A stretch of 64,000 nt of DNA from Burkholderia seminalis DSM 23518 (GTDB lineage: Bacteria > Pseudomonadota > Gammaproteobacteria > Burkholderiales > Burkholderiaceae). Positions 20,005-45,012 of this stretch are shown here, one piece after another. The stretch is from assembly GCF_902832885.1 (NCBI RefSeq), contig NZ_CADFDK010000007.1, forward strand, positions 62,001 through 126,000, in the 5' to 3' direction. Position numbers and translations under genes: made by a program. The stretch's first letter is position 1. Each line of letters opens with the position of its first letter. A model generated the notes under the pieces. The model had not been told where the DNA came from and searched no databases. It worked only from the letters and a program-made list of their open reading frames with translations.

Positions 20005-21120
20005 TCACGCGCCGAGCAGCATCCCCGTGCGCACCGGCACCGTGCCCGTCACGCGGCCAAGCGGCGCGCCGGCCGTCACGAAGCGGATCGCGCGCCGCAT
20101 GTAGAACACGCCGTCGGTCGCGCTCGAGATCGTCGTGATCGCATCGGTCAGCGGATCGACGATGTCGAACAGCGGCTCGCCCGCGCGGATCGTCGCGCCG
20201 ATCGCCGCACGATGCACGAGGATCCCGCTGACCGGCGCGTAGAACTGTTCGCTGCCCGCGAGCGGCGTGGCGGGCGCGGCCAGCGGCGGCAACGGCGTGC
20301 GTTCGCCGTGCACCGCGCCGCGCCAGACGAGATAGTCGACGAGCGCGTCGGCATCGCGTTGCGCGTATTCGTACGTCACGTCGCGCTGGCCGCGGCACTC
20401 GACCGTCACGGCCACCGTGCCGGCCGCCATCGGCGTGCCTTCCGGCAGATGCTGGCGCAACCCCGCCCACAGCAGGTGATGCGCATCGTCGAACGCCTGT
20501 CCGCCCGAATCCTCGGCGAGCAGCGACGCCTCCGCCCCGAGATAACGCGCCAGCGGCTCGATCTCCGGCCATGCAGTGTCGCTCGTGTACACGTGCATCA
20601 CCGCTTCGAGCGAACAATGCAGGTCGATCACGACCTCGGCGTCGTGCGACAGCTTCAGCAGCGCAAGCTGCAACGCGTCGAATTCGGTACGCGGTTCGAC
20701 GGCGTCGAGCGCCGCGCCGACGCATTCGCGCACGATCGCGCGATTGCGCACGCCGTCGTCGCCGAGGCGGTCGCGCGCTTGCGCGGCGATCTCCGCGAGC
20801 GGCATGAAGCCGCGATTGAAGTTGCGGCCGCTCGCCAGGTCGAACCGGCCGATGAACTGCCCGAGCAGATGATGATTGAGGCCGACCGGGTTCGACACCG
20901 GCACGAGCACGATCTCGGCCGCGAGCCGGCCGTCGGCATCGAGCTGCGCGAGGCGCTGCTTCAGCACGAACGCCGCGAGCATCGCGGGCGTCTCGTCCGC
21001 GTGCAGCGCGGCCTGCAGGTAGATCTTGCGGCCGGTGTCGGCCGGCCCGAAATGAAAGCTCGTCAGCGTGCGCTGCGTGCCGATCGACGGCGACAGGAGC
21101 GGCGTGGTGCGAATCTGCAT
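20005..21120 (-). CDS. Succinylglutamate desuccinylase/aspartoacylase (M14-type deacylase), copy 1
   Basis: The 371-residue enzyme has the AstE/aspartoacylase metal site. HADET near residue 40 gives the HxxE zinc ligands, FNRGF follows, and VVIDLHCSLEAVMH supplies the third ligand His. The C-terminal part (APVSGILVHRAAIGATIRAGEPLFDIVDP) resembles a biotinyl/lipoyl-like barrel common in these peptidases. Known relatives hydrolyse N-acyl-glutamate, -aspartate or ectoine intermediates; here N-acylated amino acids are likely substrates, unproven. It lies 65 nt downstream of the binding-protein gene on the same strand. A paralogue of identical length is at 43897-45012. Confidence 0.85.
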   Translation of the reverse strand: MQIRTTPLLSPSIGTQRTLTSFHFGPADTGRKIYLQAALHADETPAMLAAFVLKQRLAQLDADGRLAAEIVLVPVSNPVGLNHHLLGQFIGRFDLASGRNFNRGFMPLAEIAAQARDRLGDDGVRNRAIVRECVGAALDAVEPRTEFDALQLALLKLSHDAEVVIDLHCSLEAVMHVYTSDTAWPEIEPLARYLGAEASLLAEDSGGQAFDDAHHLLWAGLRQHLPEGTPMAAGTVAVTVECRGQRDVTYEYAQRDADALVDYLVWRGAVHGERTPLPPLAAPATPLAGSEQFYAPVSGILVHRAAIGATIRAGEPLFDIVDPLTDAITTISSATDGVFYMRRAIRFVTAGAPLGRVTGTVPVRTGMLLGA

Positions 21121-21185
21121 CGATGGTCTCGAACGGATGAAAACGGGGGCATCGGAGGGATCGTGGCAACGGGCCTGCGCGGCGC

Positions 21186-21959
21186 TCAGTCGCCGTACGG
21201 GTTGAAATCGAAGTACTGCTTCGCGATCCGGTCGTAGGTGCCGTCCTTCAGCATCGACGCGATCGCGCCGTCGATCGACGCCTTCAGCGCCGTATCGGCT
21301 TGCCGCATGCCGATGCCGACGCCGCGATCGCCCATGTCGAGCGGCGCGCCGACGAACGCGAAGCCCTTGCCGCGCGGCTGGCGCAGGAACCCGTAGTCGG
21401 CCTCCACCGTGCCGAGCAGCGCCGCGTCGAGACGGCCGTTCCCGAGATCGGCGAACACGTCGTCCTGGCTCTTGTACGGCACCACGCTCACGCCGGCCGT
21501 CGCCCAGTGCGCGAGCGCCCACGATTCGAACTGGGTGCCCGACTGCACGCCGACGCGCTTGCCCGCCAGCGACGCGGCCGTGCCGCCGAGCCCGAGGCCC
21601 GGCCGCGCGACGAGCCGCGACTTGAAGCGGAACAGCTTCGACGAGAACAGGATCTGCTTCTCGCGCTTCGCCGTGATCGCCATCGACGACAGGATCGCGT
21701 CGATCTTGCGCGCCTGCAGCGCCGGGATCATCCCGGAGAATTCGAGTTCGACCCACTGGCAGCGCAACTGCGCGCGGCGGCAGATCTCGTTGCCGAGATC
21801 GACGTCGAAGCCCTTCAGGCTGCCGTCGGGCGCCTTCGCATCCATCGGCGGATAGGTCGGATCGATGCCGAGCCGCACGACGTGCGCGTCGAGCGCGGAC
21901 GCGGACGTGGCGGCCAGGCCGACGCACAGGGAAACGAGCGGGACGAGGAAACGTTTCAT
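21186..21959 (-). CDS. Polar amino-acid ABC substrate-binding protein, copy 1
   Basis: The 257-residue periplasmic protein begins with a signal peptide (MKRFLVPLVSLCVGLAATSASA) followed by a type II binding fold: VRLGIDPTYPPMDAKAPDGSLKGFDVDLG, a pattern of the HisJ/ArgT (SBP_bac_3) family. The ligand-contact motif SSMAITAKREKQILFSSK and the final YDRIAKQYFDFNPYGD also fit. No permease or ATPase gene adjoins it, so it would need another ABC system or act as a receptor subunit. It shares a divergent region with a LysR gene and probably an operon with the deacylase. The paralogue is at 42889-43671. Confidence 0.88.
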   Translation of the reverse strand: MKRFLVPLVSLCVGLAATSASALDAHVVRLGIDPTYPPMDAKAPDGSLKGFDVDLGNEICRRAQLRCQWVELEFSGMIPALQARKIDAILSSMAITAKREKQILFSSKLFRFKSRLVARPGLGLGGTAASLAGKRVGVQSGTQFESWALAHWATAGVSVVPYKSQDDVFADLGNGRLDAALLGTVEADYGFLRQPRGKGFAFVGAPLDMGDRGVGIGMRQADTALKASIDGAIASMLKDGTYDRIAKQYFDFNPYGD

Positions 21960-22067
21960 GGTCGACGGAGGGCAGGAAGAGAAACAAGCGAAACAAGCGG
22001 CATCAGCCGGACTGCCTGCGATCGTAGGCGGCACGGGCCGCCGCCGAAACCATCGCCTGCCTTATCA

Positions 22068-22086
22068 TGATCGGTATTTCCGATCA
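22068..22086. promoter_or_regulatory. Palindromic LysR operator (copy 1 cassette)
   Basis: TGATCGG-N5-CCGATCA is a perfect 19-bp inverted repeat, 18 nt upstream of the LysR start at 22105. It also fits the T-N11-A rule. It lies between the divergent LysR and binding-protein genes and probably serves both. Confidence 0.65.
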
Positions 22087-22104
22087 CCGGCCTCGCGCGC
22101 ATCC

Positions 22105-23025
22105 ATGGCGTTCACGCTGTCCCAGCTCCGCATCTTCCAGGCCGTCGTCGAGCACGGCAGCCTGCGCGCCGCCGCACGCGCGCTCGATCTCGCGCAAAGC
22201 GGCGTCACGCAGCAGCTGCAGAGCCTCGAGGCCACGCTCGGCGCGACGCTGTTCACGCGCACCAATCGCGGCATCGTGCCGACGGCCGTCGGCCAGCGCC
22301 TGCTCGCGCGCTCCGGCGCGATCCTCGGTGAATGCGAACAGGTCGAACGGGAAATCCGCCAGTTGAGCGGCGCGTACGAAGGCACCGTCACGCTCGGGCT
22401 CGCGACCGAGCCGCTGATCGACGCGTTCGCGCCGGTGCTGAGCGCGTTTCGCGCGCGCTTCGACAAGGTCGACGTGCACCTGCGCACCGGCACGTCGCGG
22501 ATGATGGTCGGCTGGTTGCGGGAAAGCGCGGTCGATTTCGCGATCGCGCTGGTCGCGAAGCAGACCGACACGACCGATCTCGCGGTGACGCCGCTGCGTG
22601 CGTCGGCGCCGGTGGTCGTCTGCCGCCGCGGGCATCCGGCGATGCACGCGCAATCGCTCGCCGAGCTGGCCGGCTACCCGTGGGTGTCCACGCGCTCGCC
22701 GAACCTGAGCGCCGACCCGGTCGTGAACCGCCTGCTCGCGTACTTCGACGCGCACGGCCAGCCGCCGCCGAAGGTGCTCGCCACCGTCGAAGGGATGTTC
22801 GAGACGCTGCAGATCGTCACGCAGACCGACTCCCTCGCGCTCGAAACCGAAGCGATCACGCGGCACGGGCCGTTCGCCGGCGCGCTCGCGAAAGTGCCCG
22901 TGCGCGAGCAGGCCGAAGCGCAGGACATCTGCCTGCTGCAGCGCGCGGCCGTGCCGCTGACGCCGGCCGCGCAGGAACTCGCGGCGATGCTCGCGTCGTA
23001 CCTGAGGATGGTGCGCGGGCGGTAA
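22105..23025 (+). CDS. LysR-family regulator beside the binding-protein/deacylase genes
   Basis: The 306-residue protein has a LysR DNA-binding domain (LSQLRIFQAVVEHGSLRAAARALDLAQSGVTQQLQSLEATLGATLF) and an effector domain starting near residue 92 (GTVTLGLATEPLIDAFAPV). A perfect palindrome just upstream suggests autoregulation. By position it should control the divergent binding-protein/deacylase operon and perhaps the convergent MHS transporter. ATG 22105 (MAFTLSQL) gives a compact N-terminus typical of the family. Confidence 0.88.
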   Translation: MAFTLSQLRIFQAVVEHGSLRAAARALDLAQSGVTQQLQSLEATLGATLFTRTNRGIVPTAVGQRLLARSGAILGECEQVEREIRQLSGAYEGTVTLGLATEPLIDAFAPVLSAFRARFDKVDVHLRTGTSRMMVGWLRESAVDFAIALVAKQTDTTDLAVTPLRASAPVVVCRRGHPAMHAQSLAELAGYPWVSTRSPNLSADPVVNRLLAYFDAHGQPPPKVLATVEGMFETLQIVTQTDSLALETEAITRHGPFAGALAKVPVREQAEAQDICLLQRAAVPLTPAAQELAAMLASYLRMVRGR

Positions 23026-23059
23026 GCGCGCGGCACCGCCCCGCCGCCCGCGTCGCGCG

Positions 23060-24391
23060 TCAGTCCAGCGACTCCCCGGCCGTCTCGCGCAGCATCGCGA
23101 CCGCGATCAGCGACAGCACCACGCACGCGGCCACGTAGCCGGCCGGCGCGAGCTTGCTGCCGGTCGTCTTCACGAGCCAGGTCGCGATCAGCTGCGCGGT
23201 GCCGCCGAAGATCGTCACCGCGAGCGCATACGCGATCGAGATGCCGGTCGCGCGCACGTGGCGCGGCAGCGATTCGCACATCAAGGCCATTTCCGACGCC
23301 GAGCCAAGCGAATAGAACAGCAGCATCAGCGCGGTCAGCGGCAGGATCACCGACAGCGTCGGGTGATGGTTCATCAGCCAGAACGCCGGGAACAGCAGCA
23401 CGACCAGCACGCCGCGGCCGACGAAGATCGGCAGGCGCCGGCTGCCGAGCCGGTCCGACAGCCAGCCGAACAGCGGGCACGTGACCAGCATCACGCAGCC
23501 CGACGCGACGCCGACGAACATCGACAGCTTCATCGGCAGGCCGAGCGTGTGGATCGCGTAGGTCGGCATGTAGAACGTCAGGATGTAGGTCGACACCGTG
23601 CCGCCCATCACCGTGAGCATCAGCAGCAGCACGGTGCGCGCGTGCTTCGAGAACAGCGCGTGCAGCACGCCGCGCTCGATTCCGTGATGACGGTCGCCGG
23701 GCGCGTCGTCCGCGAGCCGGCGGCGCAGGTACATGCCGACCGGCGCGATCAGCACGCCGACGAGGAACGGCAGCCGCCAGCCCCAGCTTTCCAGCGCGTC
23801 CTTCGTCATCGTGTTCGACAGCAGCGCCGCGAAGCCCGAGCCCATCAGCGCGGCGCCGCCCTGCGTCGCCAGCTGCCAGCTCGCGCGGAACGCTCGGCGC
23901 GACGTGCCGCCGTGTTCGAGCAGCGTCGTGGTCGCCGCGCCGAATTCGCCGCCCTGCGAGAAGCCCTGCAGCAGCCGCGCGAACACGACGAGCAGCGGCG
24001 CGGCCACGCCGACCTGCGCATAGGTCGGCGCGATCGCGATCAGGCCGGTGCCGAGCGCCATCAGCATGATCGTCAGGTTCAGCGCCGCCTTGCGCCCCTT
24101 GCGGTCCGCATGGATGCCGAGCACGATGCTGCCGAGCGGCCGCGTGAAGAAGCCGGCCGCGAACGTCGCGACCGACAGCAGTAGCGACGTGGTCGAGTCG
24201 CTCGACGGGAAGAACAGCTTGCCGATCAGCACCGCGAAGAAGCCGTACACGGTGAAATCGAAGAACTCCAGCCAGTTGCCGATCACGGCCGCGGCGATCG
24301 CGCCGCGCCGCGCGACGGCACGCGCGCCGGGCATGCCGGTTTCGGCGGTCCCCGCCGATGCGGGGTGCAGCGCGAGATGGTCTTTCTGCAT
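23060..24391 (-). CDS. MFS transporter, metabolite:H+ symporter (MHS) family
   Basis: The 443-residue carrier has the MHS signature AAVIGNWLEFFDFTVYGFFA in its first helix, FFTRPLGSIVLGIHADRKGRKAAL in the first loop, and FARLLQGFSQGGEFGAATTTLLEH. Family members import proline/betaine (ProP), shikimate, citrate, 2-oxoglutarate or related compounds. It lies downstream of an M20 amidohydrolase (53 nt after it, same strand), so it may import the N-acylated or aromatic amide that the hydrolase cleaves. Confidence 0.9.
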   Translation of the reverse strand: MQKDHLALHPASAGTAETGMPGARAVARRGAIAAAVIGNWLEFFDFTVYGFFAVLIGKLFFPSSDSTTSLLLSVATFAAGFFTRPLGSIVLGIHADRKGRKAALNLTIMLMALGTGLIAIAPTYAQVGVAAPLLVVFARLLQGFSQGGEFGAATTTLLEHGGTSRRAFRASWQLATQGGAALMGSGFAALLSNTMTKDALESWGWRLPFLVGVLIAPVGMYLRRRLADDAPGDRHHGIERGVLHALFSKHARTVLLLMLTVMGGTVSTYILTFYMPTYAIHTLGLPMKLSMFVGVASGCVMLVTCPLFGWLSDRLGSRRLPIFVGRGVLVVLLFPAFWLMNHHPTLSVILPLTALMLLFYSLGSASEMALMCESLPRHVRATGISIAYALAVTIFGGTAQLIATWLVKTTGSKLAPAGYVAACVVLSLIAVAMLRETAGESLD

Positions 24392-24444
24392 CGTTGTCGC
24401 CTCTTCTCAATGCGGCCGGAAGCGCCGGCCGCGCGCCGCTGCGA

Positions 24445-25635
24445 TCACTGCCCGAGGTAACGCTCGACGAGACGCGTCCAGTACGCCGCACCGATCGGCA
24501 GGTTCCGGTCGTTGAAGTCGTACTTCGGGTTGTGCACCATGCAGCCGTCCTCGCCTTCGCCGTTGCCGAGCCGCACGAACGAGCCCGGCCGCCGCTGCAG
24601 CATGAACGCGAAATCCTCGCTGCCCATCAGCAGGTCGGTCTGCTCGACCACCTGCGCGTCACCGACCAGTTCGCGCGCGACTCGCGCGGCGAAATCCGTT
24701 TCGGCATCCGTATTGACGACGACCGGGTAGCCTTCGATGTACTCGACATTGGCCGTCGCGCCGTAGCTCGCGGCCTGCGTTTCGGCCAGCTCGGTGATGC
24801 GGCGCTTGAGCAGCGCGCGGACATCGGGGCTGAACGAGCGCACGCTGAGTTCGAGGCGCGCGCCGTTCGGGATCACGTTGTTCGCAGTGCCGGCGTGCAT
24901 CGAGCCGACCGTGACGACCGCCGGCTGCGCCGGGTCGACGTTGCGCGCGACGATCGTCTGCAGCGCCATCACGATGCTCGCCGCGACGACCACCGGGTCG
25001 ACCGTCAGGTGCGGCCGCGCCGCGTGGCCGCCGACGCCCTCGATCGTGATGATCGCCTTGTCGCCGGCCGACATGAACGGGCCGCGCCGCGTGAGGAACA
25101 CGCCGGGCGCCGCGCCCGGATGGTTGTGCATGCCGAACACGGCGTCGCACGGGAAGCGCTCGAACAGGCCGTCGTCGATCATCTTCTTCGCGCCGCTGTC
25201 GACGCCGTGCTCTTCCGCCGGCTGGAAATACAGGTGCACGGTGCCCGAGAAGTTGCGCGTCTTCGCGAGATGCTGCGCGGCGCCGAGCAGCATCGTCGTG
25301 TGGCCGTCGTGGCCGCAGGCGTGCATCTTGCCGTGCGTGCCGCTCGCATACGGCAGGCCGGTCGCCTCGACGATCGGCAGCGCATCCATGTCGGCGCGAA
25401 TGCCGATGCTGCGCGTCCCGTCGCCCACGCGCAGCGTGCCGACCACCCCCGTCTTGCCGACTCCGCGCGTCACCTGCCAGCCCCATTGCTCGAGCTTGTC
25501 CGCGACGAGCGCGGCGGTGTCGTGCTCTTCGTACGCGAGTTCGGGATGGTGATGGATGTGGTGACGGATCTCGCGCAGCCCGCCGGCGGCGGGCATCAGA
25601 TCCTCGATTTCGGTGAATCGGGTATCGGTGGTCAT
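24445..25635 (-). CDS. M20-family amidohydrolase (hippurate hydrolase-like)
   Basis: The 396-residue zinc enzyme shows the M20D layout: HHHPELAYEE, RADMDALPI, GTHGKMHACGHDGHTTMLLGAA (metal ligands Cys-Gly-His-Asp) and FQPAEEHGVDSGAKKM with the catalytic Glu pair. The dimerisation domain begins around GVGGHAARPHLTVDPV, and the last ligand region is MGSEDFAF. Family members hydrolyse hippurate, N-acetyl amino acids or IAA conjugates. ATG 25635 is preferred over the TTG three bases upstream because GGAG stands eight bases away. It is the first gene of an apparent operon with the MHS importer. Confidence 0.9.
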   Translation of the reverse strand: MTTDTRFTEIEDLMPAAGGLREIRHHIHHHPELAYEEHDTAALVADKLEQWGWQVTRGVGKTGVVGTLRVGDGTRSIGIRADMDALPIVEATGLPYASGTHGKMHACGHDGHTTMLLGAAQHLAKTRNFSGTVHLYFQPAEEHGVDSGAKKMIDDGLFERFPCDAVFGMHNHPGAAPGVFLTRRGPFMSAGDKAIITIEGVGGHAARPHLTVDPVVVAASIVMALQTIVARNVDPAQPAVVTVGSMHAGTANNVIPNGARLELSVRSFSPDVRALLKRRITELAETQAASYGATANVEYIEGYPVVVNTDAETDFAARVARELVGDAQVVEQTDLLMGSEDFAFMLQRRPGSFVRLGNGEGEDGCMVHNPKYDFNDRNLPIGAAYWTRLVERYLGQ

Positions 25636-25704
25636 CAAGAGGGCTCCTGCTGATGTCAGCGTGTCAGCCGCATGCGGGGGCCGCGTGCGGGAAAGCGAGC
25701 CACT

Positions 25705-25719
25705 ATATCGAGCCGATAT
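25705..25719. promoter_or_regulatory. Short palindrome upstream of the amidohydrolase gene
   Basis: ATATCG-AGC-CGATAT, about 70 nt before the amidohydrolase start, is a perfect 15-bp inverted repeat in the only sizeable gap upstream of that gene. It may be an operator; the regulator is unknown. Confidence 0.4.
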
Positions 25720-25869
25720 CGATTCAATAAGATGCGGAATTTTTCACCGCGATAAGATTTGTTGATCAGGGTTAATACGGGCATGGGCCCGGCCGTCCTC
25801 TCCCCCCGTCACCGGCACAACCTCCATGCCGCACGATGCGAACAGCCGTGCAGCCCCCCGCGGCATCGC

Positions 25870-26745
25870 TCAGTCGACCGCCTTCAGCGCATCGAGCCCG
25901 TCGGGCAGCCTGGCATCCGGAAACATCGTCGACAGCGTCGCATCGCGCCACCGCGCCGCCTCTTCCGCGCGCTGCGTTTCCGCCTGCTCGCACACGTACA
26001 GCGCATCGCCGCCGAGCAGCAGACGCAGCGGCACATCGTCGCGGCGCGACAACTCGACGATCAGCGCCGCGATCCGCGCGGGGTCGCCGACCTCGTGGCC
26101 GCCATACGTGCCGAGCAGCTCGAGAATCTTCCCGACCGACGGCTGGTAATCGGGCAGCAGCTCGTCGATGTCGCGCTTCGCCTGCGCGGCCCATTCGGTA
26201 CGCATCCCGCCCGGTTCGAGCGTGCACACGCGCACGCCGAACGGCGCGACTTCCTTCGCGAGCACGTCGCTGAACCCGCCGACCGCCCACTTCGCGGCCT
26301 GGTACGCGGACAACCCGGGCGTCGACGTGCGCCCGCCGACCGACGACACCTGGAAGATGTGCCCCGCACGCTGCGCACGCAGCGTCGGCAGCACGACGCG
26401 CGTCAGGTTGATCACGCCGAACAGGTTCGTTTCGATCTGATCGCGGAAGTCGTCGGTGCCCATCTGCTCGAATGGCGCCGTATGGCCGTAACCCGCGTTG
26501 TTCACCAGCACGTCGATACGGCCGAACGCCGCCTGTGCGGCCGCGACGGCCTGCGCGGCCGCCGCTTCGTCGGTGACGTCGAGTGCGACCGTCAGCAGCC
26601 GGTCGCCGTACCGCTCGGCCAGATCGGCCAGCCGCGCCGGATCGCGGGCGCCGGCCACCAGCCGGTCGCCCGCCGCGAGCACCGCTTCCGAAATCGCTCG
26701 CCCCAGGCCGCGCGCGGCCCCCGTTACCAACCAGACTTTCGACAT
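25870..26745 (-). CDS. Short-chain dehydrogenase/reductase
   Basis: The 291-residue SDR has the classical cofactor motif TGAARGLGRAI at residues 8-18, LDVTDEAAAAQAV, NNAGYG, a catalytic Ser in QVSSVGGRT and the YQAAK motif (Tyr and Lys). These features place it with the NAD(P)-binding SDRs commonly annotated oxidoreductase or SDR family; the substrate is unknown. A TetR regulator lies immediately upstream on the same strand, and the SDR promoter carries a near copy of the TetR gene's own palindrome, so a de-repressed detoxification enzyme is plausible. Confidence 0.9.
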   Translation of the reverse strand: MSKVWLVTGAARGLGRAISEAVLAAGDRLVAGARDPARLADLAERYGDRLLTVALDVTDEAAAAQAVAAAQAAFGRIDVLVNNAGYGHTAPFEQMGTDDFRDQIETNLFGVINLTRVVLPTLRAQRAGHIFQVSSVGGRTSTPGLSAYQAAKWAVGGFSDVLAKEVAPFGVRVCTLEPGGMRTEWAAQAKRDIDELLPDYQPSVGKILELLGTYGGHEVGDPARIAALIVELSRRDDVPLRLLLGGDALYVCEQAETQRAEEAARWRDATLSTMFPDARLPDGLDALKAVD

Positions 26746-26781
26746 GTTCCACTCCTTGATCGTGGTGAAATCACAAAAATG

Positions 26782-26799
26782 AATGATTACTCACTCATT
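26782..26799. promoter_or_regulatory. TetR operator at the SDR promoter
   Basis: The minus strand reads TGAGTGAGTAATCA (26797-26784), matching the sequence TGAGTGAGCACTCA upstream of the tetR gene at 12 of 14 positions. It extends to AATGA/TCATT arms. The SDR gene starts 37 nt away, so bound TetR would block it. Confidence 0.7.
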
Positions 26800-26913
26800 A
26801 ATAAGGGCGACGATTCGGTCCTTCATGACCTGCATCACCCTGCCCGAAACGCACCGCCGGCCGCCGCCGCGACACGCGCAACCGCACGCGCCGCCACGAC
26901 GGCAATCCTTCAC

Positions 26914-27492: not shown

Positions 27493-27507
27493 GTTCGATT
27501 CCTTTAA

Positions 27508-30183: not shown

Positions 30184-30185
30184 TG

Positions 30186-37162: not shown

Positions 37163-37693
37163 CACGACGAGCGCCGAAAGGCGTGCGCGCAAGCCGCGCG
37201 CGGCACCGGTATCATCCGGCTGCCGCTGGCGCATGGCCGCACGTCGCGCCGCCCGCCGCCATTCGCTTGCGCAGCCCCGATGAAAGATACTCGTAATATT
37301 CGATACCTCAACCGCTTCCGCCAGGCCCGTCGACCCCGCATTCAAATAGTCGCCTTAACGGATTCGAACTAGGCGTATACACGCGTGTCGCCGCATCGAA
37401 GCCCCGTTGCACGCCGATATAAGCGCTGCGACATGCGCTGCATGCTCTTCCCCCGATGGGACGTGATGGGCCGCTCGCCTAACCTTCGCTACGGCAAAGC
37501 ACACGTGACGGGATCGCCCTCACCACGCGTCGTCCGGCGCGACACCCTCGCGATCGTTTCGATTCGCGCGTAACGACACGCATCACGCGTCATTCGTCCC
37601 CACGACGTTGCCGAACAATCCCAACTAGATACGAGACACCCTGACGACGGTTCGCGACGAGCCGTTTCAGCATGCTGATAAAGGAGCAAGCTC
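37163..37693. other. Long 5' region of the purine permease gene (531 nt)
   Basis: No gene is visible in this stretch. Its last part contains two small hairpins directly before the ribosome binding site. It also holds several T-rich stretches and the palindromic GTATAC near 37374. Purine, guanidine or other known riboswitch sequence consensus could not be recognised by eye. Confidence 0.55.
37649..37693 (+). promoter_or_regulatory. Tandem hairpins and Shine-Dalgarno of the purine permease
   Basis: ACGGTTC pairs with GAGCCGT (37647-37653 and 37659-37665, one G-U pair). TCAGCATGCTGA (37667-37678) is a self-complementary 12-mer. AAGGAG (37681-37686) follows, seven bases before ATG. The arrangement could control ribosome access. 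Confidence 0.5.
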
Positions 37694-39082
37694 ATGAGTG
37701 ATACCCCGGTGCAGCCGACGGTCGACGTCGGCGCGGCAGAAACGGACTTTGGCACCCCGGGAGTCATCGACCGGTACTTCGGCATTTCGTCGCGCGGCAG
37801 CACGCAGCGCCGCGAGATCATTGCCGGCGTCACCACCTTCCTCGCGATGGTCTATTCCGTGTTCGTCGTGCCCGGCATGTTCGGCAAGGCCGGCTTCGAC
37901 ACGAGCGCCGTGTTCGTCGCGGTCTGCCTCACCACCGCGTTCGGCTCGCTGCTGATGGGCCTGTGGGCGAAACTGCCGATCGCGATCGGCTGCGCGATCT
38001 CGCTGACCGCGTTCACCGCGTTCGGCCTCGTGCTCGGCAAGGGCCTGCATCCGACGGTCGCGCTCGGCGCGGTGTTCCTGATGGGCCTCGTGTTCACCGG
38101 CATCTCGGTCACCGGCGTGCGTTCGTGGATCCTGCGCAACCTGCCCGCGGGCGTCGCGCACGGCACGGGCATCGGCATCGGCCTGTTCCTGCTGCTGATC
38201 GCGTCGAACGACGTCGGCCTCGTGATCAAGAACCCGGGCGCCGGCCTGCCGGTCTCGCTCGGCCAGATCACCGCACTTCCGGTCATCATGTCGATCGTCG
38301 GCCTCGCCGCGATCTTCGGCCTCGAGAAGCGCCGCGTGCCGGGCGGCATCCTGCTCGTCGTGATCGCGATCTCGATCTTCGGCCTGATCTTCGATCCGGC
38401 CGTGAAGTACCACGGCATCTTCGCGCTGCCGTCGCTGAGCGCACCGGGGCACGAATCGCTGATCGGCGCGATGGACATCAAGGGCGCGCTGTCGATGGCC
38501 GTGCTGCCGAGCGTGCTGGCACTCGTGATGACCGCCGTGTTCGACGCGACCGGCACGATCCGCGCGGTCGCCGGGCAGGCCGGCCAGCTCGACGAGAACG
38601 GCCGCATCATCAACGGCGGCCGCGCGCTGACGGCCGACTCGATCAGCTCGATCTTCTCCGGTTTCCTCGGCGGCGCGCCGGCGGCGGCCTACATCGAGTC
38701 GAGCGTCGGCGTGGCCGCCGGCGCGAAGACGGGCCTGGCAGCCGCCGTGGTCGGCCTGCTGTTCCTCGTCGTGATGTTCTTTTCGCCGCTCGCGGGCCTG
38801 GTGCCGTCGTACGCCACCGCACCCGCGCTGATGTACGTCGGCCTGCTGATGCTCGGCAGCGTGAGCAAGCTGCACATGGACGACATGGTCGATGCGATGT
38901 CGGGCCTCGTGTGCGCGGTGTTCATCGTGCTGACCGCGAACATCGTGACAGGCATCATGCTCGGCTTCTCGACGCTCGTGATCGGCCGCATCGCGAGCGG
39001 CGAATTCCGCAAGCTCAACGTCGGCACCGTGCTCATCGCGGCCGTGCTCGTCGCCTTCTATCTCGGCGGCTGGGCCATCTGA
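37694..39082 (+). CDS. NCS2 purine permease, AzgA (adenine/guanine/hypoxanthine) type
   Basis: The 462-residue protein has about twelve to fourteen membrane helices and matches AzgA-type NCS2 permeases: [30 protein letters not shown] near the start, then [28 protein letters not shown] and [22 protein letters not shown] in the middle. The segment [35 protein letters not shown] holds the conserved purine-binding region. The family imports hypoxanthine, adenine or guanine with H+. It stands alone with a long leader and a strong terminator behind it. Confidence 0.9.
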
Positions 39083-39171
39083 CCGCGACACATGCGCGAC
39101 GTCGCCTGCAGAAGGGCGGCGCGCATCGGGACGACGACGTCTCCTCCACCATCATCGTTGATGGTCTCCAG

Positions 39172-39202
39172 GCCTGGGAACGCGAGTTTCCAGGCTTTTT
39201 TT
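39172..39202 (+). terminator. Intrinsic terminator after the purine permease
   Basis: GCCTGGGAA pairs with TTTCCAGGC (one G-U) around the loop CGCGAG, followed by seven Ts. It is a textbook intrinsic terminator. Confidence 0.9.
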
Positions 39203-39306
39203 GCCGGTGCGCGCGACGCGGCGAAGCGCCGCATCGCCGCCGCCCTGCCGCCGCGCTGCGAATCCGCCGCCGGTGCTACGATCGCGTTTTGTGTTCCGGA
39301 GCAGAC

Positions 39307-39900
39307 ATGAACGCGCTCGGCATCGTCTCCGAATCGGACAGCAGGACCTCGGCGCGCAAGCCGCCGTTCATCCCGTCGTTCGGCTTTTACGAAATACACG
39401 AATCGAAGCCGATCGATGCCGATCCGGCGCGCATCATCGATGCGGTCTCCGCGATCGACATGCGCACGGATCCGGTCGTCGATACGCTGCTCAGCCTCCG
39501 CGAATTCCCGGCCGCGCTTGCCGCCTCGCTGTGCCGCGGCACCACGCGACGCGAACGCGAACGCTTCGGCCTCCATGCATTCACGCCGCTGCATCGCGAC
39601 GACACGTCGCTGTCGCTCGGCCTCGTCGGCCGCTTCTGGCGTCCCGCGCCCGACGTGCGCGCCATCGCCGATGCCGCCGCCTTCGTCCGGCACGACGACC
39701 CGCGCGATGCGAAGCTGGTGCTCCGGTTCGAGGTCGTCGGGCTCGCCTCGGGCGCGCACATGCTGCGCACGGAAACGTTCATCCACTGCCCGAGCGAGCG
39801 CACGCGCTGGCTGCTCACGCCGTACTGGCTCGCGATCCGGCTGGGGAGCGGCTGGATCCGGCGCCGCACGCTCGCGGCGGTGGAGACGGCGCTGGCCTGA
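39307..39900 (+). CDS. Uncharacterised protein, possibly DUF2867/SRPBCC-like
   Basis: I do not recognise this 197-residue protein with confidence. It has no signal peptide or membrane segment. The segment RTETFIHCPSERTRWLLTPYWLAIRLGSGWIRRRTL at the C-terminus resembles the end of DUF2867/SRPBCC-type proteins, where a similar pattern of a Cys-rich strand and a Trp/Gly turn is found. The rest contains EIHESKPIDADPARIIDAV, suggesting a bind-and-fold (START-like) scaffold. It stands alone between a terminator and the convergent CopD-like gene. Confidence 0.6.
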   Translation: MNALGIVSESDSRTSARKPPFIPSFGFYEIHESKPIDADPARIIDAVSAIDMRTDPVVDTLLSLREFPAALAASLCRGTTRRERERFGLHAFTPLHRDDTSLSLGLVGRFWRPAPDVRAIADAAAFVRHDDPRDAKLVLRFEVVGLASGAHMLRTETFIHCPSERTRWLLTPYWLAIRLGSGWIRRRTLAAVETALA

Positions 39901-39909
39901 GCCGGCCGG

Positions 39910-40311
39910 TCAGAACGGCTTGATCACGACCAGCCCGACGACGATCGCAGCCGCGGCGACGACCGCGCCCGCCGCCTGCCCGAGCCACGCCGCCGGTGCG
40001 ACGGCGAGATCGTCGCGCGCCATGCGCCGCAGCGTGCCGGCCAGCATGCCGTGCAGCGCCGACAGCGCGACGACGACGGCAAGCTTCGCCGACAGCCACG
40101 CCGCGCCGAACCAGTGACCGCTCAGCGCGATCGCGATCCCCGTGACCCAGACGATCGCGAGGGCCGGCGCCGTCACCGTGCGATCCCAGCGCCGCACCGC
40201 GCGATGCACGGCGAGGTTCGCGATCCGGACACCGACGGACAACATCAGCAGCCCGCCGACGAACGTGACGACAGCCGCCACATGCACGGCCTTCAGCACC
40301 AGGTAGATCAT
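39910..40311 (-). CDS. CopD-like/DUF2269-type membrane protein
   Basis: The 133-residue protein has four membrane helices: LVLKAVHVAAVVTFVGGLLML, TVTAPALAIVWVTGIAIAL, WLSAKLAVVVALSALHGML and LGQAAGAVVAAAAIVVGLVVI. The His in KAVHVA and HGML are positioned as haem or copper ligands in CopD/HemJ-like proteins. Start ATG 40311 overlaps the stop of the DUF3817 gene (ATGA). A role in copper, haem or respiratory assembly is inferred only from the family. Confidence 0.65.
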   Translation of the reverse strand: MIYLVLKAVHVAAVVTFVGGLLMLSVGVRIANLAVHRAVRRWDRTVTAPALAIVWVTGIAIALSGHWFGAAWLSAKLAVVVALSALHGMLAGTLRRMARDDLAVAPAAWLGQAAGAVVAAAAIVVGLVVIKPF

Positions 40312-40616
40312 CGCGCGTGCCGCCGGCGCGCGATCCATCCCGCACTCGCCAGCCCCGCGAACGGCACGACGGCCGACAACACGAGTCGCGCGACCTCGCG
40401 CCCGCTCCACAGCCCGCTCGAGGCGGTGCCGGCGAGCGCCCACACGTACATCGCGAACGCGATGCCATGCACCGGCCCCATGATCGATACCGCGGCCGGA
40501 TAACCGGCCAGATGCTTGAGCGGCACGGCGACGCACACCAGCACGACGAGCGTGGCCGCCTCCAGCAACGACAGGTACTGCAGGTTCCGCAACGCGTTGC
40601 GATCGTCTTGTGTCAT
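40308..40616 (-). CDS. DUF3817 small membrane protein
   Basis: A 102-residue protein with three membrane helices of the DUF3817 type: SLLEAATLVVLVCVAVPLKHLAG, VSIMGPVHGIAFAMYVWALAG and RLVLSAVVPFAGLASAGWI. The sequence LPLKHLAG, GPVHG (here GPVHGIAF) and PFAG are typical of this family, sometimes linked to Rhodocyclales/actinobacterial integral membrane proteins. It overlaps the CopD-like gene and is transcribed with it, divergent from the GlxA-type regulator. Function unknown. Confidence 0.75.
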   Translation of the reverse strand: MTQDDRNALRNLQYLSLLEAATLVVLVCVAVPLKHLAGYPAAVSIMGPVHGIAFAMYVWALAGTASSGLWSGREVARLVLSAVVPFAGLASAGWIARRRHAR

Positions 40617-40726
40617 CGGCCGGCTCCATCCAGGTTGATCCGCCGCGATTGTCGCGTGTGGTGCGGGTTCCGGCCATTGGCTAGAATGACATCTTTCAAC
40701 GGATTCCGGCCACGGCCGCGAACGCC

Positions 40727-41674
40727 ATGCACACGGTCGCCGTTCTCGCCTTGCCCGATGTCGTCCCGTTCGACCTGGGCATCGCGTGCGACACGTTCGC
40801 GCGCGTGCGGTTGCCCGACGGCGCGCCCGCCTACCGCGTGCGCGTGTGCAGCGAGCAGCCGCGCGTCGCCGGCGACCTGTTCGAGCTGCGCCCGCCGTTT
40901 CGTCTCGACGCGCTGGCCGACGCCGATACGATCATGGTCCCCGGCACGTCCGTGCCGCTCGCGCCGACGCCGCGCCGCGTGCTCGCCGCACTCCGCGAAG
41001 CGGCCGCGCGCGGCAGCCGGATCGCGTCGATCTGCAGCGGCGCGTTCGTGCTCGCGGAAGCCGGGCTGCTCGACGGCCTGCGCGCGACGACGCACTGGCT
41101 CGCGGCCGCCGAACTCGCACGCCGCCATCCGCACGTCGACGTCGATCCGAACGTGCTGTTCGTCGACAACGGACAGATCCTGACGTCGGCCGGCGCGGCG
41201 GCCGGCCTCGACCTGTGCCTGCACATGATCCAGGCCGACTACGGCGCGGCGGTGGCCGTCGACGCCGCACGCAGTGCGGTGGCGCCGCGCGTGCGCGAAG
41301 GCGGGCAGGCGCAGTTCATCGCGCCGGAATGGCCTGCCGGCGGCGACGGGCTGCAAGACCTGATGGACTGGCTGCAGGCGAACCTGCGCAAGCCGCTCAC
41401 GCTCGATGCGATGGCCCGCAAGGCGTCGACGAGCGTACGCACGCTGACGCGGCGCTTCCAGGCGCAGACGGGCACGTCGCCGCGCCAATGGCTGCAGACC
41501 GCTCGCGTCCGGCACGCGCAGCAGTTGCTGGAGGTGACGGAGCTGTCGATCGAACAGGTCGCGACGGAAGCCGGGTTCGGTTCGGTCACCGCGTTTCGCG
41601 AACGGTTCGCGCGCATCGTCGGCACGTCGCCGCAACGCTATCGCCAGACGTTCCGCGCACGCGCCGGCGCATGA
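40727..41674 (+). CDS. GlxA-family transcriptional regulator (DJ-1/PfpI domain plus AraC HTH)
   Basis: The 315-residue protein combines an N-terminal DJ-1/PfpI-like domain (residues about 1-170, IASICSGAFVLAEAGLLDG with the nucleophile-elbow Cys, TTHWLAAAELARRHP) with a C-terminal AraC-type double HTH (MARKASTSVRTLTRRFQAQTGTSPRQWLQTARVRHAQQLLE and VATEAGFGSVTAFRERF). GlxA-type regulators govern catabolism of betaine, arginine or carnitine; the ligand is unknown here. It is divergent from the DUF3817/CopD-like pair. Confidence 0.9.
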   Translation: MHTVAVLALPDVVPFDLGIACDTFARVRLPDGAPAYRVRVCSEQPRVAGDLFELRPPFRLDALADADTIMVPGTSVPLAPTPRRVLAALREAAARGSRIASICSGAFVLAEAGLLDGLRATTHWLAAAELARRHPHVDVDPNVLFVDNGQILTSAGAAAGLDLCLHMIQADYGAAVAVDAARSAVAPRVREGGQAQFIAPEWPAGGDGLQDLMDWLQANLRKPLTLDAMARKASTSVRTLTRRFQAQTGTSPRQWLQTARVRHAQQLLEVTELSIEQVATEAGFGSVTAFRERFARIVGTSPQRYRQTFRARAGA

Positions 41675-41741
41675 CGTTCCCCAGGACCGCCATCCGAAGC
41701 ATGAAACCGTCGCCCCCTTTCGCGCCAACCGGACCCGACCG

Positions 41742-42662
41742 ATGACCCGCATCCGCAACCCGCTGAACATCGCGCAGCTCCAGGCGTTCGTCTCCGCCGC
41801 GCACCTCAAGAGCCTGCGCGCCGCCGCGCGCGAACTCGGCGTCACGCAGCCCGCGATCACGCACACGATCCGCGAACTCGAAACGGCGCTCAACGCGGAG
41901 TTGCTCGCGCGCAGCGTGCGCGGCGTCGAGCTGACCGCATGCGGCCACGCGCTGCTGCCGCGCGCCGAGCAGCTGCTCGGCGACATCCGCCGCACGGTCG
42001 AGGCCGTCGAGCAGGTGAAAGGCGAGATGTCGGGGCGCGTCGCGGTCGGCACGATGCCGTCGATCGCGCTGACCGCGCTGCCGCACGCGGTGACGGCGTT
42101 CCGCCGGTCGATGCCGAACGTGAGCCTCCATCTGGAGGAAGTGACGGTACCCGACGCGCTCGCGCAGCTGCGCAACGGCACGCTCGACATCGCTGCGATG
42201 CACCATGTGCCCGCGCTCGACCGCGATTTCACGCAATCGCCGCTGCTGTCGACCGAATTCACGATCGTGATGCGCGACGGCCACCCGCTCGCGCATGCGC
42301 GCCGTTTAGAGGAACTGCTCGATGCCGAGTGGATCGTCACCGTCGGCGCCGAGCAGTTTCCGCACAGCGTGATGGTCGGGATGTTCGAGAAGCACGGGCT
42401 GCCGCTGCCGAAACGCCTGCTGCGCTCGCCGATGTCGTTCGCGGTGACGCTCGGGCTCGTCGCGCGCTCCGACGTGATCGGCTGCTTCACGCGCCCGCTG
42501 GCCGCGATGGTCGCGCCGCTCGGCATCCGCACGGCCGAACTCGACGAAAGCATGCCGCGCTTCGACCTGTCTATCATCGCGCGGCGCGACCTGCTGCCCA
42601 CGCCCGCCGTGTCGCAATTCGTCACGTGCCTGCGGCGCGCGGTCAACGAAACGCTCGGCTGA
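41742..42662 (+). CDS. LysR-family regulator beside binding-protein copy 2
   Basis: The 306-residue protein has a TdcA/CbbR-like N-terminus (LNIAQLQAFVSAAHLKSLRAAARELGVTQPAITHTIRELETALNAELL) and a substrate-binding effector domain from about residue 92. It stands 226 nt upstream of an orphan amino-acid binding protein in the same direction, next to a deacylase: the same gene types as at 20-23 kb, although this LysR is only distantly similar to that one. No long palindrome was found in the 226-nt gap. Confidence 0.85.
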   Translation: MTRIRNPLNIAQLQAFVSAAHLKSLRAAARELGVTQPAITHTIRELETALNAELLARSVRGVELTACGHALLPRAEQLLGDIRRTVEAVEQVKGEMSGRVAVGTMPSIALTALPHAVTAFRRSMPNVSLHLEEVTVPDALAQLRNGTLDIAAMHHVPALDRDFTQSPLLSTEFTIVMRDGHPLAHARRLEELLDAEWIVTVGAEQFPHSVMVGMFEKHGLPLPKRLLRSPMSFAVTLGLVARSDVIGCFTRPLAAMVAPLGIRTAELDESMPRFDLSIIARRDLLPTPAVSQFVTCLRRAVNETLG

Positions 42663-42888
42663 ATCGTTCCTGTGTCTGAAACGGCGGCGCCCGCAACGCG
42701 CCGCCGCCGGGCCCGGTATCGGGGCTTGTCCTAGGCGCCCTGCCGGTATTTTGTCTTGATAATCTTGCGCACGTCGCGCACCCGCATCGGGTGGGCGAAA
42801 CGGACTGTCCGACGCGAAGCCGCGGCGGACCGAAGGCTTACGGCGCGGCACAACCGCGCACCCATCGAACAAAACGAGGAGTCACCGA

Positions 42889-43671
42889 GTGAAAAAGATT
42901 CTTGCGGCTGTGACCGTTGCCCTGCTCGCCGTATCGGCAGGCAGCGCGTACGCGAAGGACTGGTCGACCGTGCGGTTCGGCGTCGACGCCAGCTACCCGC
43001 CTTTCGAATCGAAAGGCGCCGACGGCAAGGTTGTCGGTTTCGACGTCGATCTCGGCAACGAAATCTGCCGCCGCATCCACGCGAAGTGCGTGTGGATCGA
43101 AAACGACTTCGACGGGATGATCCCGGCGCTGAAGGCCCGCAAGTTCGACGGCGTGCTGTCGTCGATGTCGATGACGCCGGCGCGTCAGGAACAGATCGCC
43201 TTCTCGGCGAAGCTGTTCAACACGCCGACGCGCCTCGTCACGAAGAAGGGCACGGGCCTGATGCCGACGGCCGAATCGCTGAAGGGCAAGTCGGTCGGCG
43301 TCGAGCAGGGCACGATCCAGGAAACCTACGCGAAGACGTACTGGGCGTCGAAGGGCGTGAACGTCGTGCCTTACCAGAACCAGGACCAGGTCTACGCCGA
43401 CCTGATCTCCGGCCGTCTGGACGGCGCGCTGCAAGACGCGGTGCAAGCCGAGATCGGCTTCCTGAAGACGCCGCGCGGCGCGAACTTCGACTTCGCCGGC
43501 AAGGACATCGACGATCCGAAGACGCTCGGCAACGGCGCCGGTATCGGTCTGCGCAAGGAAGACACCGACCTGAAGGCGAAGATCGACGGCGCGATCGCCG
43601 GCATGCGCAAGGACGGTACGTACGACAAGATCGCGAAGAAGTACTTCGATTTCGACGTCTACGGCAAGTAA
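42889..43671 (+). CDS. Polar amino-acid ABC substrate-binding protein, copy 2 (ArgT-like)
   Basis: The 260-residue periplasmic protein has the signal peptide MKKILAAVTVALLAVSAGSAYA and a type II binding fold (VRFGVDASYPPFESKGADGKVVGFDVDLGNEICRR; SSMSMTPARQEQIAFSAKLF). It matches lysine/arginine/ornithine receptors such as ArgT/HisJ and is clearly paralogous to 21186-21959. The start is GTG 42889, seven bases after GAGGAG. No permease or ATPase gene adjoins it. A strong terminator follows, so it is a single-gene transcript. Confidence 0.9.
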   Translation: MKKILAAVTVALLAVSAGSAYAKDWSTVRFGVDASYPPFESKGADGKVVGFDVDLGNEICRRIHAKCVWIENDFDGMIPALKARKFDGVLSSMSMTPARQEQIAFSAKLFNTPTRLVTKKGTGLMPTAESLKGKSVGVEQGTIQETYAKTYWASKGVNVVPYQNQDQVYADLISGRLDGALQDAVQAEIGFLKTPRGANFDFAGKDIDDPKTLGNGAGIGLRKEDTDLKAKIDGAIAGMRKDGTYDKIAKKYFDFDVYGK

Positions 43672-43705
43672 TACGGCCAGCCGGCGCGCCGCGCGCCGCG
43701 ATGAA

Positions 43706-43734
43706 ACGGGCTCCGCGAGGAGCCCGTTTTTTTT
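43706..43734 (+). terminator. Intrinsic terminator after binding-protein copy 2
   Basis: ACGGGCTCC pairs perfectly with GGAGCCCGT around GCGA and is followed by eight Ts. Confidence 0.92.
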
Positions 43735-43815
43735 GCGCGCGCGGGTTGGGCGACGTTATTTTTTCCGTACCAAACCGATGATTCGCAAGGAAAATCCGCG
43801 CGTTCCGGTACCGGT

Positions 43816-43845
43816 TTGATGGCGACGACGCAGGCAACGTACAAT
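43816..43845 (+). promoter_or_regulatory. Sigma-70 promoter of deacylase copy 2
   Basis: TTGATG (43816-43821), an 18-nt spacer and TACAAT (43840-43845). It places transcription start near 43852, downstream of the ATG at 43816, which argues for the 43897 start of the deacylase. Confidence 0.6.
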
Positions 43846-43896
43846 CGTCCTTCCACGCACACCGGATCCTTCGCGGCTGCGCCGCACTCCCCCATC

Positions 43897-45012
43897 ATGC
43901 AAACGCAGACCCATCCGCTGATTTCCCCCGCCGTCGGCACCGAACGCCAGATCACGAGCTTCCACTACGGCCCGCGCGGCGGCAAGAAGGTCTACATCCA
44001 GTCGTCGCTGCATGCGGACGAACTGCCCGGCATGCTGGTCGCCACGCTGCTGCGCCGCAAGATCGCCGCGCTCGAGACGGCCGGCAAGCTGCGCGGCGAA
44101 ATCGTGGTCGTGCCCGTGCCGAACCCGATCGGCCTGTCGCAGCACGTGTTCGGCGATCACCTCGGCCGTTTCGAGCTCGGCTCGATGCAGAACTTCAACC
44201 GCAATTTCTACGATCTCGCGGCACTGGTGCTGCCGCGCGTCGAACACCATCTCACGAACGACGCGCAGCGCAACCTCGTCGCCGTGCGCGCCGCGATGCG
44301 CGAAGCGCTCGACGAGCAGAAGCCGCGCACCGAACTCGACTCGCAGCGCCTCGCGCTGCAGAAGCTGTCGTTCGACGCCGATATCGTGCTCGACCTGCAC
44401 TGCGACAGCGATGCGGTGATGCACCTCTACACGAATCCCGACCTCTGGCCGGACGTCGAGCCGCTGTCGCGCTATCTCGACGCGCAGGCGTCGCTGCTCG
44501 CGCTGAATTCGGTCGGCAACCCGTTCGACGAAATCCACAGCTTCTGCTGGTCGGATCTGCGCAGCCGTTTCGGCGACCGCTTCCCGATCCCGAACGGCGC
44601 GATTTCCGTCACGGTGGAACTGCGCAGCGAACGCGACGTGTCGTACGAACTCGCCGAAAAGGACGCACAGGCCATCGTCGAGTACCTGACCGAGCGCGGC
44701 ATCGTCGACGGCACGCCGGCGCCGCTGCCGCCGCTCGCGCATCCGGCCACGCCGCTCGCGGGCACCGATCCGCTTGTCGCGCCGGTATCGGGCGTGATCG
44801 TGTTCCGCACGCCGGTCGGCGCGATGATCGAGGCGGGCCAGGCCGTGGCCGACATCGTCGATCCGCTGACCGATCGCGTCGTCACGCTGAAGAGCAGCGT
44901 ATCGGGCGTGCTGTACGCGCGCCAGATCGTGCGCTTCGCGACGGCCGGCATGGAAGTCGCGCGCGTCGCCGGCGCGACCGCGATCCGCACGGGTTCGCTG
45001 CTGTCGGCCTGA
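43897..45012 (+). CDS. Succinylglutamate desuccinylase/aspartoacylase (M14-type deacylase), copy 2
   Basis: The 371-residue enzyme has the same length and motifs as the 20005-21120 copy: SLHADELPGML with the HxxE ligands, FNRNFYDL, DIVLDLHCDSDAVMHLY with the third zinc ligand, and a C-terminal barrel PVSGVIVFRTPVGAMIEAGQ. It carries its own promoter (43816-43845), 225 nt after the binding-protein gene. Relation to the amino-acid binding protein suggests cleavage of N-acylated basic or acidic amino acids, unproven. Chosen start ATG 43897 (MQTQTHPLISPAVG) aligns with the other copy. Confidence 0.85.
   Translation: MQTQTHPLISPAVGTERQITSFHYGPRGGKKVYIQSSLHADELPGMLVATLLRRKIAALETAGKLRGEIVVVPVPNPIGLSQHVFGDHLGRFELGSMQNFNRNFYDLAALVLPRVEHHLTNDAQRNLVAVRAAMREALDEQKPRTELDSQRLALQKLSFDADIVLDLHCDSDAVMHLYTNPDLWPDVEPLSRYLDAQASLLALNSVGNPFDEIHSFCWSDLRSRFGDRFPIPNGAISVTVELRSERDVSYELAEKDAQAIVEYLTERGIVDGTPAPLPPLAHPATPLAGTDPLVAPVSGVIVFRTPVGAMIEAGQAVADIVDPLTDRVVTLKSSVSGVLYARQIVRFATAGMEVARVAGATAIRTGSLLSA

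Follow-up and report, generated by a model that had tools for sequence, protein, structure and literature searches.

In Burkholderia seminalis, two permease-less pairs of a binding protein gene and an M14 enzyme gene resemble halves displaced from an operon for arginine-dipeptide uptake

We analyzed a window of 64 kb (positions 62001 to 126000 of contig C7) from the 8.0-Mb genome of Burkholderia seminalis DSM 23518 (G000). Two loci in this window each hold genes for a LysR-type regulator, a solute-binding protein (SBP) of the LAO type, and an M14-family enzyme that the initial annotation had called a deacylase. The features are given below with their positions in the window.

20005 to 21120, minus strand: deacylase 1 (dea1), 371 amino acids, M14 enzyme of the AstE/AspA type; PF24827, 50 bits; PDB entry 8ein, E value 2.2e-61; included in the trees
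21186 to 21959, minus strand: BP1, orphan LAO-type SBP, 257 amino acids; PF00497, 120 bits; LAO in the PDB, E value 6.3e-72; remodelled alpha-amine pocket
22062 to 22086, minus strand: candidate LysR1 operator between BP1 and LysR1, palindrome TGATCGG-N5-CCGATCA with adjoining ATGATAA
22105 to 23025, plus strand: LysR1, 306 amino acids; HTH_1 and LysR_substrate domains; divergent from BP1
41742 to 42662, plus strand: LysR2, 306 amino acids; HTH_1 and LysR_substrate domains; upstream of BP2 and co-directional with it
42889 to 43671, plus strand: BP2, orphan LAO/HisJ-type SBP, 260 amino acids; TIGR01096, 277.4 bits; canonical pocket
43897 to 45012, plus strand: deacylase 2 (dea2), 371 amino acids, M14 enzyme; PF24827, 47.9 bits; PDB entry 8ein, E value 6.8e-72; included in the trees

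The two deacylases are 51% and the two binding proteins 55% identical, in agreement with their initial description as paralogous pairs. That description had also spoken of a trio that occurs twice with differing gene order. The recurrence holds for the binding protein and the deacylase, but the LysR proteins share only 29% identity, as ordinary distant members of their family do; LysR thus lies outside the duplicated unit and was ruled out as a component of it. Gene order likewise differs for LysR alone, since in both loci the binding protein gene comes first and the deacylase gene follows on the same strand, with gaps of 65 bp in locus 1 and 225 bp in locus 2. The window contains two diverged copies of the pair, about 19 kb apart. 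As judged by eye, BP1 and BP2 have a signal peptide and dea1 and dea2 have none. The reported lack of a transporter at either locus was borne out: tblastn searches of the window with HisQ, HisM, and HisP (queries from the same genome, from Paraburkholderia for HisM, and from Escherichia coli) found no permease, and the lone match to an ATP-binding cassette (ABC) ATPase, at 25 to 30% identity, is at 54.5 kb.

Both enzymes exceed the cut-off of PF24827, the catalytic domain of AstE/AspA-type M14 enzymes, and an NCBIfam scan matched them to 0 families, hence to no curated AstE family. Their identity to the AstE encoded in the ast locus of this genome, away from the pairs, is 22% and 21%. The AstE-like function initially assigned to them was ruled out on these grounds. 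The closest solved relatives of both are 8ein and 8eip, which were deposited under the name "succinylglutamate desuccinylase" and which we take to be the cyanophycin dipeptide hydrolase CphZ. Over aligned residues, dea1 is 34% and dea2 40% identical to 8EIN. Four residues, His40, Glu43, His168, and Glu241 (dea1 numbering), are invariant in 36 aligned relatives and align with 8EIN; they are presumably the metal ligands and the catalytic glutamate. In a quick tree, which has several long branches, dea1, dea2, 8EIN, the enzyme of the Pseudomonas aeruginosa aot operon, and aot-type M14 genes form one group (support of 94 in the Shimodaira-Hasegawa-like approximate likelihood ratio test) apart from AstE. 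Within it, dea2 is sister (90) to M14 genes of other Pseudomonas, some of them in full aot-type operons and some not; 8EIN branches elsewhere, at a position the tree leaves unresolved, and dea1 is on a branch separate from dea2. A nesting of the window enzymes in one clade with P. aeruginosa AotO was dropped, since adding AotO to the tree did not settle its position. The predicted model of dea1 has a mean pLDDT (predicted local distance difference test score) of 81. Judged by their sequences, dea1 and dea2 belong with CphZ and the M14 enzymes of aot operons, not with AstE. CphZ is named as an isoaspartyl dipeptidase in PMC12661447.

The pairing recurs in other genomes, and the restriction to a single genome that the initial annotation had named as a refutation was thereby not borne out. 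When 61 Burkholderia genomes were searched with dea1, copies of at least 88% identity were found in 35. We examined 35 dea1-type genes, namely, those of 34 of these genomes (G060 was left out) and a 63% copy of G010. BP1 is directly upstream of 34 of them; the exception, in G020 (L213), is a dea1 match in two pieces without a binding protein. G011 and G055 hold only short end fragments of dea1 (82% and 92% identity), and the dea1/BP1 pair seems to decay in some species. The 35 genes were covered by 40 stretches, five genes by two stretches each; BP1 adjoins the enzyme gene in 39 of the 40, and no matches to HisQ, HisM, or HisP (below, Q, M, and P) were present in these stretches (4.1 kb for 30 genes and 14.5 to 17 kb for ten stretches). 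For pair 2, the positions of the enzyme and BP2-type genes were compared by eye in the 41 Burkholderia genomes common to both searches. All 41 carry a BP2-type gene on the enzyme's contig, at a distance of about 4 kb or less: 36 have the two genes side by side, 4 have one gene between them, and in G014 both are fragmentary at assembly gaps. The inserted gene encodes the lysine exporter LysO in G030 and G033, which points to lysine release by the pathway, and in G006 and G034 it is, by eye, an acyltransferase-like gene on the opposite strand. In L282, the locus on which Pfam was run, LysO (PF03956, 1.6e-42) is at positions 6823 to 7746, and it has the same place in L283; these are two of the smallest genomes. 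Conservation across the genus indicates that the pairing is more than chance and sustains the initial view that binding protein and deacylase work as a unit.

Beyond these genomes, we inspected named loci, the best 80 of 581 relatives, in which the closest to dea2 are from B. catarinensis, B. paludis, and B. puraquae (97%). An SBP-M14 arrangement without Q or M within 4 kb was found at 60 of the 80 and the order SBP-Q-M-M14-P at 6, all from Pseudomonas, while the SBP is at a distance in 1; ABC-ATPase matches below 45% identity, present at 18 loci, were counted as unrelated transporters. In L091 of Paraburkholderia (positions 2022 to 7878), three LAO-type SBP genes lie within 6 kb, and the last alone directly precedes M14.

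More complete arrangements occur in other members of the order. Among 200 genomes, 28, including the present one, have an M14 relative at an E value of at most 1e-60, and we examined every one of the 33 genes of this kind carried by the remaining 27. An SBP and Q/M accompany 21 of the 33, three form SBP-M14 pairs, and one adjoins Q-M-P without an SBP in reach. SBP-Q-M-M14-P is the usual order; in L262 the genes run M14-SBP-Q-M, and two M14 genes are present in L249. Neighbours were listed for seven full operons; by eye, five of these are followed by an ArgR-like gene and four by an astC-like gene. An annotated record of P. aeruginosa has the series SBP-permease-permease-M14-aotP-argR-(hypothetical)-aruC-aruF. 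The genome's own ast locus on contig C1, also read by eye, is Q-M-P-ArgR-like-astC-aruF-aruG-astD-(astB not called)-astE-SBP, and none of the four M14 genes of the genome is inside its QMP set. In Paraburkholderia L131, SBP-M14 is followed about 3 kb on by SBP-Q-M-P-M14; L110 has SBP-M14 plus SBP-Q-M-P; and next to a Caballeronia plasmid gene of the dea1 clade, an SBP-ATPase-permease-permease set is encoded divergently. Since the SBP and the M14 enzyme belong to a full SBP-Q-M-M14-P operon in many relatives, a distant, shared permease, as first suggested, is the best explanation. On the simplest reading, the pairs resemble halves displaced from an operon for arginine-dipeptide uptake, an SBP and an enzyme that became detached from a transporter on which they still depend. 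Trees of the enzymes and of the binding proteins draw the two pairs on separate lineages. As counter-examples to permease-less pairing, alphaproteobacterial plasmids carry M14 genes with complete ABC sets, and another such M14 gene has no SBP.

The pockets of the two binding proteins differ. BP2 scores 277.4 bits and BP1 228.8 bits against TIGR01096, that is, above and below its cut-off of 256.35 bits. We compared the pocket positions tabulated for LAO, OccJ, and NocT in PMC5740067. BP1 retains Asp11, Tyr14, Phe52, Ser69, Ser70, and Arg77, the set around the side chain and carboxylate of the Arg moiety, and departs from LAO by S72A, L117Q, Q122F, and D161G. In PMC5740067 and PMC4192606, the alpha-amine is described as being held by Ser72 and Asp161 in LAO and the side chain of Arg as being bound by Gln117 in OccJ and NocT, and the Q122A variant of LAO is reported to gain octopine binding. 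All 34 distinct BP1 sequences have lost both alpha-amine anchors and gained Gln117; A72/F122/G161 is found in all 41 entries of the BP1 cluster, which represent these 34 sequences and include copies from another genus of the family and from a plasmid (62 to 69% identity). The loss of both anchors together with Gln117 leads us to predict an N-alpha-substituted Arg or Lys as the BP1 ligand. BP1 carries no opine keto-acid signature, having A72, S92, Q121, F122, and G161 versus G/M/S/H/S in NocT and S/N/T/A/N in OccJ. The L262 SBP, which has its own permeases and lies beside an M14 gene, likewise shows Q117, F122, and G161, and the SBP of the P. aeruginosa aot operon has Ala122. In BP2, which is 83% identical to the genome's HisJ, Ser72 and Asp161 are both present. 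Since this is the pocket of the housekeeping HisJ, a dipeptide ligand for pair 2 is not claimed with confidence. A beta-aspartyl-Arg or -Lys dipeptide is itself an N-alpha-acylated Arg or Lys, and the initial guess of N-acylated or opine-like ligands was thus close: it fits the pocket of BP1 and does not extend to BP2.

SBPs of this type outnumber the permeases that could serve them. At an E value of at most 1e-60 for LAO-type SBPs and a laxer 1e-30 for HisQ-like permeases, 41 Burkholderia genomes had a median of 10 SBPs versus 5 permeases, SBPs being more numerous in 40 and equal in 1. The present genome has 12 LAO-type SBPs, of which three are beside Q/M genes (C2:654 kb, C18, and C3:750 kb) and one is at the far end of the ast locus; the other eight have no TIGR01726 permease within 8 kb. 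BP1 and BP2 are among those with no permease of their own nearby, and an intact HisQMP-type translocator is encoded elsewhere in the genome. A catabolic enzyme gene adjoins 7 of the 8 orphans: two M14 enzymes, an M20 enzyme, a flavin adenine dinucleotide (FAD) oxidase pair, a PhyH dioxygenase, DAO with ornithine cyclodeaminase, and an aminotransferase with an FAD oxidase. This adjacency, counted without a random-gene control, is suggestive only. Apart from the pairs, the orphan loci with such enzymes are L156, L157, L159, L160, and L161. Similar sets, seen in a few plasmid records, are SBP-DUF2817-2-oxoglutarate oxygenase-LysR in Pantoea and Klebsiella, ornithine cyclodeaminase-aminotransferase-SBP-M14 in Enterobacter, and aminotransferase-SBP and cyclodeaminase-M14-M14 in B. 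ambifaria; P. aeruginosa has an SBP beside dauRAB. We tentatively propose, as an idea still somewhat short of probable, that uptake in Burkholderia follows a hub-and-plug scheme in which numerous portable cassettes without a permease draw on a small number of HisQMP hubs and in which BP1 would be a dedicated receptor for N-alpha-aspartyl Arg/Lys that ignores free arginine. Each cassette, to continue this tentative scheme, would combine a retuned LAO-type SBP with the first catabolic enzyme for its ligand, often with a private regulator.

Such a regulator may be LysR1, which probably acts at the palindrome between its own gene and BP1. The 7-nucleotide arms of TGATCGG-N5-CCGATCA are fully complementary, ATGATAA follows on the BP1 strand, and the core GATCATGATAA does not vary across the aligned upstream regions (11 of 11). 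The palindrome includes ATC-N9-GAT, which is a form of the LysR box. At up to 3 mismatches the pattern has one site in the genome (reversed control, 0). With a single site, no HisQMP set is co-regulated through it, and LysR1 looks private to locus 1. No sigma-70 promoters or terminators were found at 19.8 to 23.1 kb. LysR2 accompanies pair 2 at 9 of the 80 named loci (L073 to L081) and is absent from the other 71.

Bringing together the gene anatomy, the conservation of the pairs, the enzyme group, the full operons of relatives, and the pocket residues, we infer with moderate confidence that each pair supplies the ligand-specific part of a system that takes up and hydrolyzes basic amino acids in the form of beta-aspartyl isopeptides, or similar N-alpha-substituted Arg/Lys. 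The candidate ligands would be beta-Asp-Arg and beta-Asp-Lys, as released from cyanophycin by other organisms. The binding protein would capture the ligand in the periplasm and dock on a HisQMP-type translocator encoded elsewhere, with the HisJQMP operon near C2:654 kb and the QMP sets of C18 and of the region around C1:1260 kb as candidates; the M14 metalloenzyme would then split the imported dipeptide in the cytoplasm into Arg/Lys and Asp. Given that no signal peptide was seen on the enzymes, the substrate must reach the cytoplasm. It must also come from outside, as the genome has no cyanophycin synthetase above the cut-off and no cyanophycinase match. Own cyanophycin metabolism was discarded as an explanation, the best CphA-like matches (C5:502 to 512 kb) falling, by eye, in a cell-division/murein cluster.

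A number of observations weigh against this interpretation. (i) The same lack of cyanophycin genes leaves the genome without a source of its own for the proposed substrate. (ii) The step from enzyme group to substrate draws on our assumption that 8EIN/8EIP is CphZ and on AotO of P. aeruginosa, which was reportedly identified as a CphZ by Sharon et al. in PNAS in 2023; the P. aeruginosa aot enzyme is 40% and 42% identical to dea1 and dea2, and the tree does not fix its place inside the group. (iii) At the 13 compared pocket residues, BP2 equals the HisJ of the genome's HisJQMP operon, so that free Arg, Lys, or His would suit it equally. (iv) The change at 122/161 is not associated with M14 linkage over 28 clusters at 60% identity (9 of 19 linked and 5 of 9 unlinked clusters; Fisher p = 1), a count that omits SBPs of less than 220 amino acids and L203_12509, which has a doubtful start and was also left out of the SBP tree; the signature was dropped as a general mark of such linkage. 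(v) No SBP is within reach at 13 of the 80 named M14 loci, neither SBP nor Q/M is in reach of 8 of the 33 order-level genes, and L195 and L196, two outlying members of the dea1 clade, possess a LysR but no LAO-type SBP. (vi) The LysR1 palindrome is unique in this genome when up to 3 mismatches are allowed, and a HisQMP operon under the same control was not found. (vii) Approximately unbiased (AU) tests, made after removal of long-branch rows, did not reject a single origin of the two pairs (p-AU of 0.098 for enzymes and 0.487 for binding proteins), and two independent origins, as drawn in the trees, are accordingly not claimed.

The alternative that survives best keeps the architecture and the shared permease and changes the ligand: an N-acyl-Arg/Lys, an opine, or some other basic amino acid substituted at N-alpha would be bound, and the M14 enzyme would be an amide hydrolase of shifted specificity. 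BP1 and NocT share Gln117, a small residue at 72, and the loss of Asp161; dea1 and dea2 are on separate branches; and, elsewhere in the genome, one orphan SBP has as its neighbour a DAO/Pyr_redox pair similar to an opine oxidase, and another has an M20 amidohydrolase. However, opines are secondary amines, not expected substrates of an M14 amide hydrolase, and the nopaline and octopine keto-acid signatures are absent from BP1. We consider this alternative unlikely, if worth keeping in view. A second one concerns pair 2: BP2 would import free Arg, Lys, or His, the enzyme would handle isoaspartyl dipeptides that arise as the cell turns over its own proteins, and adjacency would reflect common regulation rather than a shared substrate. 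The HisJ-like pocket of BP2 and the M14 genes lacking an SBP, points iii and v above, speak for it. Against it, pair 2 is kept in all 41 Burkholderia genomes compared, even around an inserted gene, and 21 of the 33 order-level M14 genes sit in transport operons, which makes it rather improbable in our view. Finally, a sensing role, also raised in the initial annotation, in which the loaded binding protein activates a membrane receptor and LysR and the enzyme respond, would suit the absence of a nearby permease and the activation of sensor kinases by some SBPs (PMC11113362), but it is very improbable, given that no kinase or chemoreceptor was seen by eye beside either pair, that LysR proteins are cytoplasmic and the enzymes appear by eye to lack a signal peptide, and that the SBPs tested in the same paper showed no interaction with neighbouring kinases.

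The interpretation as the ligand-specific half of an uptake-and-hydrolysis system can be set against known systems. (i) The Pseudomonas aot operon also combines an LAO-type SBP and a same-group M14 enzyme in one gene string tied to arginine catabolism, whereas the window pairs lack Q, M, and P, have the SBP directly before the enzyme and a LysR beside the pair, and occur in two copies. (ii) CphZ, if 8EIN/8EIP is rightly so identified, is the closest solved relative and has the same metal-site motifs, but at the modest identities given above and with no cyanophycin genes in the window genome. (iii) AstE, the succinylglutamate desuccinylase, shares with dea1 and dea2 the Pfam catalytic family PF24827; the low identity, the location in the ast locus, and the lack of an NCBIfam match set it apart. 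(iv) The opine binders NocT and OccJ resemble BP1 as LAO-type SBPs with a lost alpha-amine anchor and Gln117; unlike BP1, NocT has its own permeases, and their keto-acid signatures are missing from BP1. (v) In enterobacteria, HisJ and ArgT (LAO), of the same SBP/transporter family, are two SBPs for one HisQMP (PMC5708682), but there the SBP genes are neighbours of the QMP genes and come without an accompanying enzyme. (vi) According to PMC5806209, the SBP CaiX of P. aeruginosa has no permease of its own, stands first in a catabolic operon with a hydrolysis step, and relies on a distant core transporter, CbcWV; the ligand there is carnitine and the transporter another one, and sharing by the Burkholderia pairs would be the analogous case. 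The use of a distant core transporter by an SBP (CaiX, HisJ/LAO) and the M14-SBP link of the aot operon are thus already known. In the titles and abstract starts searched, neither the reduced SBP-M14 pair nor its doubling in Burkholderia was found described, nor were the altered pocket of BP1 and the broader range of cassettes; a search on aotO returned no relevant title.

The interest of the finding lies in the apparent generality of plug-in cassettes. If correct, the proposal would explain the surplus of LAO-type SBPs in Burkholderia, and the neighbouring enzyme would hint at the ligand of each orphan. It would also enlarge the range of bacteria that can scavenge cyanophycin-type dipeptides while neither synthesizing nor degrading the polymer. 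For BP1 the prediction is sharp, namely, that N-alpha-aspartyl arginine should be bound and free arginine not.

Several further observations concern relatives and neighbours of the pairs. Distant M14 relatives (in tandem in 4 of 5) are beside an orphan SBP and an aminotransferase in L201, L202, L203, L278, and L280, and on the B. ambifaria and Enterobacter plasmids ornithine cyclodeaminase is also beside them. On an Enterobacter conjugative plasmid (L277:6995-9584), GntR, an orphan LAO-type SBP, a SIS-domain gene, and a ribokinase-like gene form a set that resembles one for the catabolism of Amadori compounds. Twelve loci under Pseudomonas names (L135 to L140, L142 to L146, and L152; L143 is labelled Pantoea), presumably of the P. 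putida group, have no LAO-type SBP in reach of the M14 gene. In the window, pair 2 is followed by a gene for a MetQ/NlpA-type binding protein (45148 to 45954, minus strand), beside which no MetN or MetI was seen, and then by a porin gene (46263 to 47420, plus strand). By eye, the MetQ/NlpA-type gene and the porin gene are also downstream of the pair in L110, L131, L282 to L286, L288, and L289; in L287 no MetQ gene was called after the pair. Both flanks of locus 1 hold further transporter-plus-hydrolase sets, with an M81/MlrC-type gene, a transporter-like gene (by eye), and a LysR gene at 15849 to 19919 and a major facilitator superfamily symporter and an M20 amidohydrolase at 23060 to 25638.

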